This document shows, one piece after another, positions 25,743-32,295 of a DNA stretch of 48,941 nucleotides. The first letter of the stretch is position 1, and every line of letters begins with the position of its first letter. The translations under genes were made by a program, and so were the position numbers. Source of the DNA: Nitrospinota bacterium (GTDB lineage: Bacteria > Nitrospinota_A > UBA7883 > JACRGQ01); the NCBI GenBank assembly GCA_016200345.1, contig JACQEX010000020.1, positions 1 to 48,941 of the forward strand, read 5' to 3'. Below the pieces are notes generated by a model. It saw nothing but the letters and a program-made list of their open reading frames with translations. It was not told where the DNA came from and did no database searches.

Positions 25743-25806
25743 GTTTACACCGATACCGCCAATTCCCGGAATTGTACCGGTCATGCCGATACATCGGTGC
25801 TAAACG
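25743..25806. repeat. nested inverted repeats in the thiO upstream intergenic region
   Basis: Outer arms GTTTAcACCGAT / ATCGGTgcTAAAC; inner palindromes CAATTCCcGGAATTG (25760-25774) and CCGATacATCGG (25786-25797). Confidence 0.75.
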
Positions 25807-26339
25807 GTTATGAGCAGTAAGCCGTTTGCGAAGTACCAGACGCCAACGACGCCGACCCCGACGCCAAGCAACCAAACCAACTTTTTCTTAAGCAGGGCGG
25901 CAATGGAGGAAAGGAGTATGGCTATCTGCAGATAAATCACCGCCATTCCAAACACGCGGGAGTGCTTTTGCGAATCGTCCCGGACCCCCTCCAGCTTTTT
26001 GGCCTCCGCCTGAATCGCCGTTTTTTCCGTCTCGTACTTCTCCACTTTTTTGGAGTAGTCCTCTATCTTCTTCTTGTAGGCGTCCATCAGCGGCTTTTGG
26101 GTTTTCTCGTTTAACGCCGAAAGCTCGACCTGGATTTTTTCCCGCTGTATTTCGTACAGATTAAGCTTGATGCTTTTCGCCTGGTAATAGGCCCATTGGT
26201 CGGATGCCTGCGACTGACTCATCACCGCCTTGGTGGAATGTCCGCCCCCCTTAAAGGTGGAAAGCGTCGCGCACACGGCGAGTATCACGGTTGTTAACGC
26301 CAAATAATTCAACCAAGGCTCTTTTTTATCGTCCGCCAT
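25800..26339 (-). CDS. DUF4337-like membrane protein
   Basis: 179 aa; LNYLALTTVILAVCATLSTFKGGGHSTKAVMSQSQASDQWAYYQAKSIK with a coiled-coil and two C-terminal TM segments. Confidence 0.75.
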   Translation of the reverse strand: MADDKKEPWLNYLALTTVILAVCATLSTFKGGGHSTKAVMSQSQASDQWAYYQAKSIKLNLYEIQREKIQVELSALNEKTQKPLMDAYKKKIEDYSKKVEKYETEKTAIQAEAKKLEGVRDDSQKHSRVFGMAVIYLQIAILLSSIAALLKKKLVWLLGVGVGVVGVWYFANGLLLITV

Positions 26340-26410: not shown

Positions 26411-26439
26411 TTGCTCTGAATATGTTTGCGTGTGAGAAT
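26411..26439 (+). promoter_or_regulatory. putative ispH promoter (TTGCTC-17-GAGAAT), 6 nt before ATG
   Basis: -35 at 26411-26416, -10 at 26434-26439 with TGT extended -10; ATG at 26446. Confidence 0.45.
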
Positions 26440-26445
26440 CAAGGG

Positions 26446-28155
26446 ATGGCTAATATAAAGCTTGCAAGCACGGCCGGTTTCTGTTGGGGCGTAAAACGTG
26501 CCATTGACCTGACGTTGGAGGCATCCAACGGAAAAACCGAAACTGTTTACACGTTTGGCCCTCTTATCCATAATCCACAAATAATCAATCTGTTAGAGAG
26601 TAAAAACATTCGTGTAAAAAAGGACGTCGACGATATGACCGGAGGCGAGATAATCATCCGCACCCACGGCATTAGCCCCAAACAACGCTCGTTGATTAAG
26701 GAAAAGGGGATACACATAACCGACGCCACCTGTCCGTTGGTCGCCAAGGTGCAGGCGATGATAAAGAAATACTCCCACAAGGGATATGCAATCGTCATTG
26801 TGGGTAGCGCGGATCACGCTGAGGTTGTCGGCCTTAAAGGGTTCGCCACCACGCCTGTCCACATCATCTCCAAAGCTGAGGAGGTCGCGCCCCTTCCAAA
26901 TTACAAGGACGTTTTTGTTTGCGCCCAAACCACCCAGAACGTGGAGGGGTATTCGACCATCGTGAAACTACTCGGTGAAAAATACGAAAATCTTGTCGTA
27001 GGCGACACGATATGCGACGCCACGACGGACAGGCAGGGAGAGGTAATCGCCCTTGCGCGCGAAGTCGAGGCCATGGTCGTGGTCGGCGGAAAGGAGTCGG
27101 CCAACACGGCGCGGCTGGCGTCCATCGCCGAGGAACGAGGGTTGCCGACCTTTCTTATAGAGACGCAAGACGAACTGAACCTTGAACAACTAAGCAGGTT
27201 TGAAAACATTGGCGTGACTGCGGGCGCCTCGACCCCCAAATGGGTGATAGACGACGTTGTTACGAAACTTAGCCAATTAAAACCCCTGGACCGGCCGTGG
27301 TCTTTTAAAATACGTAGCGCCACCGGATTTATGGTGAAAAGCGAGCTTTATCTTTCACTTGGCGCTGTAGCCATGACCTACGCGAACATGATGGTCATGA
27401 TGATGGAGCCGTCCTTGCACCTATTTGGCATTGCCTTTTGCGCGATACTTTCGACCTATTTGCTCAACCAACTTCTGCGCCCGGAGGAGTTTAAAAGAAG
27501 CCATATTCGAAAATATAACTACTTGATTGAACATCGGCGGACATTTAAAACAATCGCGATTTCTTCCGCCGTTCTTGGCGCCATTCTGTCCTTTACCGCC
27601 AAGCCGGTTATCGGGGGCATTTACGCCATCTTGTTGCTTTTTGGGGGGACTTACGGGGTCAACAGACCGGCGTTTGAAAAGTTATTTGGAAAATTTTCTC
27701 GACTTAAGAGCATCCCGGCCTCCAAGGATTTTTTTGTAGGGCTAGCCTGGGGGATTGTCACTGTGGCGATTCCTTATATAGCCTTCGGGAAAGGGGCGTA
27801 TTTTATTCTTCCCTTTGCAATCACCTTTATGATGGCCTACGTTCGAGCCGTTTTGTTGGATCTTCAGGACATATATTCCGACAGGATGATGGGGAAAGAG
27901 GTTTTGCCGATTTTGATGGGGGAAAAAAAATCGGTGACGACGATTTACGGGGTGCTTATAACCGGCTTGGTGTTCCTAACCGGCTTTTTGCTTAGCGGCG
28001 GCCTCCTGTCATCTGTTGCGCCTTATTACTTGGGAATCGCCTACCTCCTCGGGTTTACCTTTTTCCATCAAAAATGGGGGGGCTCCTCAAAATTTAACTT
28101 TTTCTTGGATACGCACTACTTTGTGATGGCATTGTCGGCCCTTTTAATTCGTTAA
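26446..28155 (+). CDS. ispH: IspH (HMBPP reductase) fused to a UbiA-type prenyltransferase-like membrane domain
   Basis: N-terminus: GFCWGVKRA, DATCPLV, ICDATTDRQGE (three Fe-S Cys). C-terminus: about 280 aa hydrophobic with DLQDIYSDRMMGKEVLP (DxxDxxxD UbiA motif). Confidence 0.88.
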   Translation: MANIKLASTAGFCWGVKRAIDLTLEASNGKTETVYTFGPLIHNPQIINLLESKNIRVKKDVDDMTGGEIIIRTHGISPKQRSLIKEKGIHITDATCPLVAKVQAMIKKYSHKGYAIVIVGSADHAEVVGLKGFATTPVHIISKAEEVAPLPNYKDVFVCAQTTQNVEGYSTIVKLLGEKYENLVVGDTICDATTDRQGEVIALAREVEAMVVVGGKESANTARLASIAEERGLPTFLIETQDELNLEQLSRFENIGVTAGASTPKWVIDDVVTKLSQLKPLDRPWSFKIRSATGFMVKSELYLSLGAVAMTYANMMVMMMEPSLHLFGIAFCAILSTYLLNQLLRPEEFKRSHIRKYNYLIEHRRTFKTIAISSAVLGAILSFTAKPVIGGIYAILLLFGGTYGVNRPAFEKLFGKFSRLKSIPASKDFFVGLAWGIVTVAIPYIAFGKGAYFILPFAITFMMAYVRAVLLDLQDIYSDRMMGKEVLPILMGEKKSVTTIYGVLITGLVFLTGFLLSGGLLSSVAPYYLGIAYLLGFTFFHQKWGGSSKFNFFLDTHYFVMALSALLIR

Positions 28156-28162
28156 TTTGGCC

Positions 28163-28178
28163 TGTTCCACATGGAACA
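28163..28178. promoter_or_regulatory. parS site (variant)
   Basis: TGTTCCACATGGAACA; near-palindrome similar to parS, upstream of parAB. Confidence 0.75.
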
Positions 28179-28218: not shown

Positions 28219-28234
28219 TGTTCCACGTGGAACA
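28219..28234. promoter_or_regulatory. parS site (perfect palindrome)
   Basis: TGTTCCACGTGGAACA; 16-bp perfect palindrome, one T/A-to-C/G variant pair relative to TGTTTCACGTGAAACA. Confidence 0.9.
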
Positions 28235-28298: not shown

Positions 28299-29090
28299 AT
28301 GAAGAGGACTATTGCGATTTCAAACCAAAAGGGGGGAGTTGGGAAAACAACCACCGCCATAAACCTTGGGGCGTGCCTCGCCATGGCCGGAAAAAGCACC
28401 CTCATCATAGACGCTGACCCGCAGGCCAACACAACCTCCGGCTTGGGATTACCCACAAACCTTGAAAACACAATTTATTCCGCACTAATGAACGAAAAAC
28501 TTGAAGCGGATACGATAAGACCAACCGTTATTGACTCCCTTTTTGTGTTGCCGTCGGACATCAATCTTTCCGGGGCCGAACTGGAACTTGTTTCCGCGAC
28601 CAACAGGGAATTTAGACTAAAAAATATCATCGCCTCCTTTGACTCAAAATATGATTTTATACTTATTGACTGCCCCCCCTCCCTCGGGTTGCTCACCATC
28701 AACTCGCTCTCGGCGGCGGATTCCGTAATAATTCCACTGCAGACGGAATATTTTGCGTTGGAGGCTCTGGGGAAACTCATGAACACCATCAATTCGATAA
28801 GAGACACATTTAACCCGTCATTGGAGGTCGAAGGGCTTTTATTCACAATGTTCGACAAGCGCACTTCCCTGTCGAACCAAATAGTCGAAGAGATTGCCCA
28901 AAATTATAAAAGCCATGTTTTTGGGACTGTCATCCCGCGCAATATAAAGCTCTCCGAAGCTCCGAGCCACGGCCTCCCCATAGTGCTCTACGACACAAAA
29001 TCAAAGGGGGCGGACGCCTATGTGGATCTAGCGAGGGAGCTAATTAACAAACACAAGAATGCGTTTGAAGATTCAGGGAGAAAAAAATGA
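28299..29090 (+). CDS. parA: ParA family chromosome-partitioning ATPase
   Basis: 263 aa; AISNQKGGVGKTTTAINLGACLA deviant Walker A. Confidence 0.96.
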   Translation: MKRTIAISNQKGGVGKTTTAINLGACLAMAGKSTLIIDADPQANTTSGLGLPTNLENTIYSALMNEKLEADTIRPTVIDSLFVLPSDINLSGAELELVSATNREFRLKNIIASFDSKYDFILIDCPPSLGLLTINSLSAADSVIIPLQTEYFALEALGKLMNTINSIRDTFNPSLEVEGLLFTMFDKRTSLSNQIVEEIAQNYKSHVFGTVIPRNIKLSEAPSHGLPIVLYDTKSKGADAYVDLARELINKHKNAFEDSGRKK

Positions 29091-29920
29091 CGGTAAAAAA
29101 GGCTTTGGGGAGGGGGCTTGGCGCACTGTTGCCAGATCAGGGCAAGGTGATGCCTCGGATCATGGATGTCCCGCTTAATCAGATAGTTCGAAACAGATAT
29201 CAGCCGAGATTGCACTTTAACGACGAGTCCATCAAGGAGCTAGCCGCGTCAATAAAAGAAAACGGAGTAATTCAGCCGATTATTTTGCACAAGGTGGACG
29301 ACGGCTACGAACTTATCGCCGGAGAAAGAAGATTTAGGGCCGTCAAGTCACTTGGCATGGAGGCCGTCCCGGCGATTGTCAGGACGGTTCAACGCGCCGA
29401 GGCGCTTGAGTTTGCAATTATAGAGAATATACAGAGGGAAGATTTAAACCCGTTGGAGCAGGCGAAGGCTTTCAAACTGCTTATGGACGACTTCAATCTC
29501 ACCCAGGAGGACGTGGCCAAAAAGGTCGGCAAAGAGCGTTCGACGGTCGCCAATTTTTTAAGGCTCCTGAAACTTCCCGAAGAGATTCAACGAGACGTGG
29601 AAACAGGCAGGCTTACGATGGGCCACGCGCGGGCACTACTGGCCTGCGCGGGCAAGCCTGCGATGATGGAGATGCGCGCAAAAATTCTCAGCCTGGGCCT
29701 GAACGTGAGAGACGCCGAGGCGCACGTAAAAAAGAAATCACCCGCAAAAAAGAAAATGGAAAAAAACGCGTTCGTCCGAGACGTGGAGGAAAAGTTGCAA
29801 AAAAAACTTTCGACCAAGGTTGCAATCACCGCCTCAAAAAAGGGGCGCGGGGTTATAACAATAAATTATTATTCAGACGAAGACCTCGAGAGGCTCTCGG
29901 AAATATTCGGCGCGCTTTAG
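29087..29920 (+). CDS. parB: ParB chromosome-partitioning protein
   Basis: 277 aa; RNRYQPR, YELIAGERRFRAVKSLG, ENIQREDLNPLEQAKAF; ATGA overlap with parA. Confidence 0.96.
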   Translation: MTVKKALGRGLGALLPDQGKVMPRIMDVPLNQIVRNRYQPRLHFNDESIKELAASIKENGVIQPIILHKVDDGYELIAGERRFRAVKSLGMEAVPAIVRTVQRAEALEFAIIENIQREDLNPLEQAKAFKLLMDDFNLTQEDVAKKVGKERSTVANFLRLLKLPEEIQRDVETGRLTMGHARALLACAGKPAMMEMRAKILSLGLNVRDAEAHVKKKSPAKKKMEKNAFVRDVEEKLQKKLSTKVAITASKKGRGVITINYYSDEDLERLSEIFGAL

Positions 29921-31221: not shown

Positions 31222-32295
31222 CTACCGCCTTAGTTTATCCAGCGATTGTTCAAAGGGGGCCGTGGCGACACCGCGCTCGGTGATAATTGCCGCGATGTTT
31301 TCGTTTGGAGTAACGTCAAAAGCGGGATTAAAGATTTTTATTCCGTCCGGGGCGAGTTGCCTGTTTCCAACGTGGGTGACCTCCCGCAGGTCTCGTTCCT
31401 CAATCGGAATGTGATCCCCGTTTGGGATGTTATAGTCAATCGTCGAAATCGGGGCCGCCACGTAAAAAGGAATTCCGTGCGCCTTTGCGAGAATTGAAAG
31501 AGAGTACGTGCCGATTTTGTTAGCCGCGTCCCCGTTGCGCGCTATTCTGTCCGCGCCGACGACGATTTTTTGAACCAGCCCCTTTTTCATGCAGTAACCG
31601 GCCATGTTGTCGGTTATCAACGTAACGTCAATGCCTTCCTTCTTTAACTCCCATGCGGTAAGCCTGGCCCCCTGTAAAAATGGGCGCGTTTCGTCGGCGA
31701 ACACGCTTATGCGCTTCCCCTGCAGGTGGGCGGCCTTAATAACACCAAGCGCGGTGCCGAAAGCGGCCTTAATAACACCAAGCGCGGTGCCGAAATGTCC
31801 GGCCGTGGCCAGCGCCCCCGCGTTGCAATGGGTGAGCACCGTTTCGCCGTCGCCGATGAAGTCCGCCCCGTTTTTACCAAGCGTTTCGTTTATGAGCAAA
31901 TCCTCGGCCAATATTTTTTTTGCCTCGTTCGCGGCTCTCCCCTTTAATTCCTCAACACCCGCGCCGGTCGCGCCTAGCACCGCCCCACGCATTCTCTCCA
32001 CCGCCCAAAATAAATTAACCGCGGTCGGTCTTGTGCCGCCGATTACATCGCAGATTTTTTCAAACTCCGCCTTAAACTTGCCAATGTCCGTCGTTGTAAT
32101 TTCCCGCGCGCCCAGCGCAACCCCGCCCGCCGCCGCGACCCCTATCGCCGGAGCTCCGCGGACGGTCATGTTTTTTATCGCCTCCGCCAGCTCCAGATAA
32201 TTTTTACAGTCCACAACTACCTCCTCCGTCGGAAGAAGACGCTGGTCAATAAGCCTTACGATTCCATTTTCCAAAAATTCAACGGTTTTAATCAT
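31222..32295 (-). CDS. mtnA: S-methyl-5-thioribose-1-phosphate isomerase
   Basis: 357 aa; TVRGAPAIGVAAAGGVALGAR, VLTHCNAGALATAG, VFADETRPFLQGARLTAWEL, NGDAANKIGTY. Confidence 0.95.
   Translation of the reverse strand: MIKTVEFLENGIVRLIDQRLLPTEEVVVDCKNYLELAEAIKNMTVRGAPAIGVAAAGGVALGAREITTTDIGKFKAEFEKICDVIGGTRPTAVNLFWAVERMRGAVLGATGAGVEELKGRAANEAKKILAEDLLINETLGKNGADFIGDGETVLTHCNAGALATAGHFGTALGVIKAAFGTALGVIKAAHLQGKRISVFADETRPFLQGARLTAWELKKEGIDVTLITDNMAGYCMKKGLVQKIVVGADRIARNGDAANKIGTYSLSILAKAHGIPFYVAAPISTIDYNIPNGDHIPIEERDLREVTHVGNRQLAPDGIKIFNPAFDVTPNENIAAIITERGVATAPFEQSLDKLRR
31730..31795. repeat. perfect 33-bp tandem duplication (2 copies) inside mtnA
   Basis: gcggccttaataacaccaagcgcggtgccgaaa twice in direct succession; encodes FGTALGVIKAA x2. 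Confidence 0.98.

Follow-up and report, generated by a model that had tools for sequence, protein, structure and literature searches.

IspH fused to a UbiA-fold membrane domain with a degenerate first aspartate motif in Nitrospinota

IspH is the HMBPP reductase of the MEP pathway, which makes IPP/DMAPP and is essential and otherwise soluble. Its occurrence in a single chain with a membrane domain resembling UbiA prenyltransferases, one of whose aspartate motifs appears degenerate, raises the question of what such a domain contributes to the enzyme. The case examined here lies in a stretch of 48,941 nucleotides from a Nitrospinota bacterium (contig JACQEX010000020.1), hereafter the window (Table 1). 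A first-pass annotation, made from the sequence alone, had read one open frame as a complete IspH followed by a UbiA-like domain, and both the continuity of the frame and its composition stand: LYTB and UbiA (E 3.4e-13) were the only Pfam domains above threshold in the 569-aa protein, with IspH N-terminal and UbiA C-terminal, which is the architecture of the IspH-UbiA family. An alternative in-frame ATG at 26422 could lengthen the product by 8 residues. AlphaFold modelled the full-length fusion with pLDDT 86 and pTM 0.56, the latter value leaving the relative placement of the two halves uncertain.

Table 1. Features of the fusion gene and its surroundings, in window positions
Feature	Position	Strand	Details
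DUF4337 protein	25803-26339	-	divergent, upstream of fusion gene
ispH-ubiA fusion gene	26446..28155	+	single uninterrupted frame, 569 codons + stop
IspH (LYTB) domain	26455..27270	+	PF02401 E 4.9e-89; Foldseek to 3dnf, 3ke8, others
UbiA-fold membrane domain, nine transmembrane helices	27286..28152	+	PF01040; AlphaFold; Foldseek
Degenerate first Asp motif NQLLRPEEF	27466..27492	+	N341-F349; AfUbiA N68 kept, D72 -> R345, D76 -> F349
Tyr403	27652..27654	+	nearly invariant in fusion family; candidate equivalent of AfUbiA Y139
Family motif RLKSIPASKD	27700..27729	+	Lys427 invariant in alignment A3
Intact second Asp motif DLQDIYSD	27859..27882	+	D472, D475, D479; DxxxD = D475-IYS-D479
parS-like palindromes (two)	28163-28178; 28219-28234
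parA/parB	28299-29920
Initiation-factor-2B-like protein	31222-32295	-	PF01008

The N-terminal half is a complete IspH. The LYTB domain (residues 4-275) is full-length, matching positions 1-266 of the 267 in the PF02401 profile, and the NCBIfam model for IspH, TIGR00216, scored 289.6 bits against a cut-off of 187.85. The best NCBIfam bit score went to NF000907, the IspH-RPS1 fusion of clostridia, which is likewise an IspH with a C-terminal extension; however, that extension consists of ribosomal protein S1 repeats, which are absent here, and the match falls in the IspH part of the model. All three cluster cysteine motifs are present as first annotated, C13, C96 and C190 being invariant among 22 aligned fusions, as are H42, H74, H124, E126, T162/T163, S218, N220 and S262, all of them residues established in E. 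coli IspH. The canonical enzymes of E. coli (3ke8), Aquifex (3dnf) and P. falciparum (4n7b) have the same fold, cluster cysteines and catalytic residues at 30-37% identity; these lack a C-terminal membrane domain, whereas the fusion carries an extra ~290 aa. This is the sole LYTB gene found in the window's genome (93% complete), and IspG is also present, so that the organism probably runs the MEP pathway. Judged by its sequence, the IspH half would work normally.

The C-terminal half proved to be a genuine UbiA fold, as had been proposed for this membrane-spanning tail. The Pfam match (residues 364-543, 49.9 bits against a cut-off of 34.2) covers only positions 66-235 of the 250 in the profile, and the structure predicted for this half with 57 relatives reached pLDDT 93.1 and pTM 0.92. 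Foldseek aligned it with 6m31, 7bpu, 4od4, 4od5 and 4tq3-4tq6, all at probability 1.00, with TM scores to UbiA structures of 0.57-0.73 (~0.7 to Aeropyrum UbiA; 4od5, 0.69/0.73), which disposes of the concern that the C-terminus might adopt some other fold. The domain shares fold, motif positions and the second aspartate motif with the solved prenyltransferases (ApUbiA, 4od4/4od5; AfUbiA, 4tq3-4tq6; DGGGP synthase, 6m31), but differs from them in its low identity (11-17%), the loss of the first aspartate motif, its attachment to IspH and its IPASKD motif. Its best Foldseek match was DGGGP synthase, and NCBIfam returned weak, sub-cut-off matches of the tail to geranylgeranylglycerol-phosphate geranylgeranyltransferases (GGGP). 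When the PDB was searched with profiles, chlorophyll synthase and AfUbiA were matched weakly and nothing better was returned, and the counterparts of AfUbiA K146 and R22 can for that reason not be fixed by sequence. A PDB entry sharing 'KDIPxSKD', 7sez, was set aside as a chance resemblance.

Used alone as a query of contigs, the window sequence yielded no matches, and the distribution given here comes from an alignment-based search, which succeeded. The fused UbiA domain was found in 23 of 24 sampled Nitrospinota genomes, the single miss being a genome that is 73% complete, and each Nitrospinota genome of at least 90% completeness has one IspH, in the fused frame except at contig breaks. Strong matches occurred in 42 of 386 sampled genomes, 27 of the 42 lying outside Nitrospinota, so that the survey called for in the first-pass annotation reveals a recurrent fusion, found in some 27 genomes of other bacterial families as well. 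Named records that carry it are labelled Nitrospinota, Nitrospinaceae, Planctomycetota, candidate division B38 and, among binned genomes, Pseudomonadota or Nitrospirae. Practically all matches sit in frames of ~560-640 aa, which argues that the subfamily scarcely exists outside the fusion. That two genes were joined by an assembly or frameshift artefact, for which nothing was found in favour, is excluded for all practical purposes by this recurrence throughout the phylum, the same architecture being seen across independent genomes, assemblies and phyla and in published fusions. On contig 6 of genome G061, the fusion gene is split within its IspH part into two overlapping frames (L075/L076), probably through a sequencing frameshift.

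In a tree of IspH sequences, one branch with 100/100 support parts the fused rows from 19 unfused ones, once L157, a truncated copy of gene L014 from the window's own family that had been scored as unfused, is set aside. Given a small, score-picked sample of 19 unfused sequences, the tree is consistent with few origins of the fused IspH, perhaps one.

The fusion itself is not new. Rao et al. 2015 (Chem Sci, PMC4746011) described 47 IspH-UbiA 'Rosetta stone' fusions, all stated to come from anaerobic sulfate reducers and to contain two DXXXD motifs. They suggested membrane localisation and a local supply of IPP/DMAPP, which is the same channelling and anchoring idea as in the first-pass annotation, and failed in an attempt to express active IspH-UbiA. 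One later paper using the term was found, and it does no more than cite that work. Those fusions have in common with the present one an N-terminal IspH with three cysteines, a C-terminal UbiA-like domain of about nine transmembrane helices and a separate UbiA/MenA in the genome. By their published description, however, they belong to sulfate reducers and have two DXXXD motifs, whereas here, in Nitrospinota, both aspartates of motif 1 are lost and motif 2 alone is intact; the repeated DXXXD is an observation by Rao et al. rather than a requirement for membership by architecture. Two findings go beyond that work. The family reaches Nitrospinota, Planctomycetota and others, which corrects the view of these fusions as confined to sulfate reducers, and its first aspartate motif is eroded, to the point of complete loss in the window's family. 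A whole phylum has its sole IspH tied to a UbiA fold, within a natural series running from a motif 1 that is (almost) complete to one that is fully lost. Such a series makes testable the question posed by Rao et al., why IspH should be fused to UbiA at all, since the residues still conserved once canonical catalysis is lost indicate the purpose of the fusion.

The functional weight of these residues is known from structures and mutants. In AfUbiA, two Mg2+ are held by N68 and D72 of motif 1 and by D198 and D202 of motif 2, and D76 makes no direct contact with metal; N68A, D72A, R22A and K146A abolished GPP binding and D198A and D202A weakened it, and E. coli MenA requires the equivalents of N68, D72, D198 and D202, and also of Y139 (PMC4106721). 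We tallied the corresponding positions in the window's own family (f1, 11 sequences), in a class comprising f1 and 11 others, and in 48 further aligned fusions, the tallies being counts and not evolutionary events, as the rows are not phylogenetically independent. No member of f1 has an acid at the D72 position (R in 7, N in 3, L in 1 of the 11) or at the D76 position (I, L, F or V; 0/11), in agreement with the degeneracy of motif 1 first noticed in the window. The same pattern in independent genomes argues that this is neither sequencing error nor chance. Some f1 members carry a Glu close by (RPEE, RPKE), none of them conserved family-wide. The 11 class members outside f1 always keep D72 and never D76; among the 48 further fusions, an acid occupies the D72 position in 42 (31 D and 11 E) and the D76 position in 11. 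Outside f1, the D72 position is thus acidic in 53 of 59 aligned domains, and a complete NxxxDxxxD is found in 9 of 71 fused domains. The second motif, annotated as intact, is so throughout the class: equivalents of D475 and D479 are kept in the whole class and in all 10 f1 members that reach motif 2. The lysine of IPASKD (SK) is present in 69 of 70 sequences, Lys427 in 11/11 of f1, and equivalents of N68 are largely conserved among the fusions. With R at the D72 position in only 7 of the 11 f1 members, the idea that this Arg generally substitutes for magnesium in binding the diphosphate was abandoned. A further degenerate branch is formed by very divergent fused relatives from the phylum of genome G026 (L087-L100), in which little of the IPASKD motif is left and motif 1 reads DWQG or EWQG.

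The loss of motif 1 has not been followed by decay. Between f1 species, all of which lack it, dN/dS is 0.065-0.093 in the UbiA half and 0.070-0.090 in the IspH half, values that are approximate because dS is high; the UbiA half is under strong purifying selection and is being maintained. It is also the faster-evolving half (48% identity between the window and L006, against 68% for the IspH half), as might befit a bare membrane anchor that binds no ligand and in which motif 2 is an ancestral leftover. We consider this explanation improbable, however, in view of a dN/dS below 0.1 and the unbroken conservation in f1 of the motif 2 DxxxD and of Lys427; a pure anchor would need neither these nor the tyrosine, which argues that some ligand chemistry remains.

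These observations are most easily reconciled with a UbiA-fold module that serves as the anchor of IspH and has kept its ligand binding but, in this lineage, has given up canonical prenyl transfer, a reading to which we assign a probability of roughly 0.6. The UbiA half would position IspH on the cytoplasmic side of the membrane. Its second aspartate motif, the lysine of IPASKD and the conserved tyrosine may still bind a ligand, which could be a prenyl lipid, a diphosphate or a quinone-like head group. Canonical two-metal prenyl transfer has probably been lost from it in the f1 lineage, making this half probably a pseudo-enzyme, which as an anchor or ligand-holding module would keep IPP/DMAPP production beside its membrane-bound users. 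Ordinary prenyl transfer would fall to the separate, canonical UbiA encoded on another contig of the same genome, in which both aspartate motifs are intact (NRLTDAKFD and DVEHD) and whose best PDB match is ApUbiA. Of the two roles originally offered for the tail, membrane anchoring or scaffolding is thereby supported as a reading, and prenyl transfer is weakened in this lineage, since all 11 members have lost the match to D72, a residue that AfUbiA needs to bind GPP and MenA needs to be active (PMC4106721).

As proposed by Rao et al. 2015, the UbiA half would instead be an active prenyltransferase with a modified first metal site, acting in the synthesis of menaquinone, an archaeal-type ether lipid or another prenylated lipid, and the fusion a means of channelling fresh IPP/DMAPP into prenyl diphosphate use. 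The large conservation of motif 2, the lysine, the tyrosine and the Asn68 equivalents speaks for it, as do the acid that prevails at the D72 position outside f1 and the resemblances to GGGP geranylgeranyltransferases and DGGGP synthase; for fusions outside f1 that keep D72 or a Glu, it stays open. In f1, we regard it as unlikely though deserving serious attention, in that neither D72 nor D76 survives in any member and a canonical UbiA already exists in the genome (shown for genome G000 only). Moreover, IspH yields C5 products and UbiA enzymes take longer prenyl diphosphates, so that direct channelling would need an intervening prenyl diphosphate synthase. Somewhat more doubtfully, the UbiA half in f1 might be a non-catalytic receptor. 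Motif 2 and the lysine of IPASKD would then recognise a quinol, a prenyl lipid or a prenyl diphosphate, and IspH would be adjusted in response, by feedback sensing or by electron or substrate supply at the membrane; if true, the final step of the MEP pathway would contain a regulatory pseudo-prenyltransferase.

Nothing in the neighbouring genes (DUF4337, thiO-like, thiG, parA and parB) connects the locus functionally with isoprenoids. Two parS-like palindromes, TGTTCCACATGGAACA and TGTTCCACGTGGAACA, lie in the interval from the fusion gene to parA/parB, where none is expected by chance; they probably represent a chromosome-partition site, and the locus would therefore lie near the replication origin. 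Farther downstream, the initiation-factor-2B-like protein resembles methylthioribose-1-phosphate isomerase and contains a short internal direct repeat, 'FGTALGVIKAAFGTALGVIKAA'.
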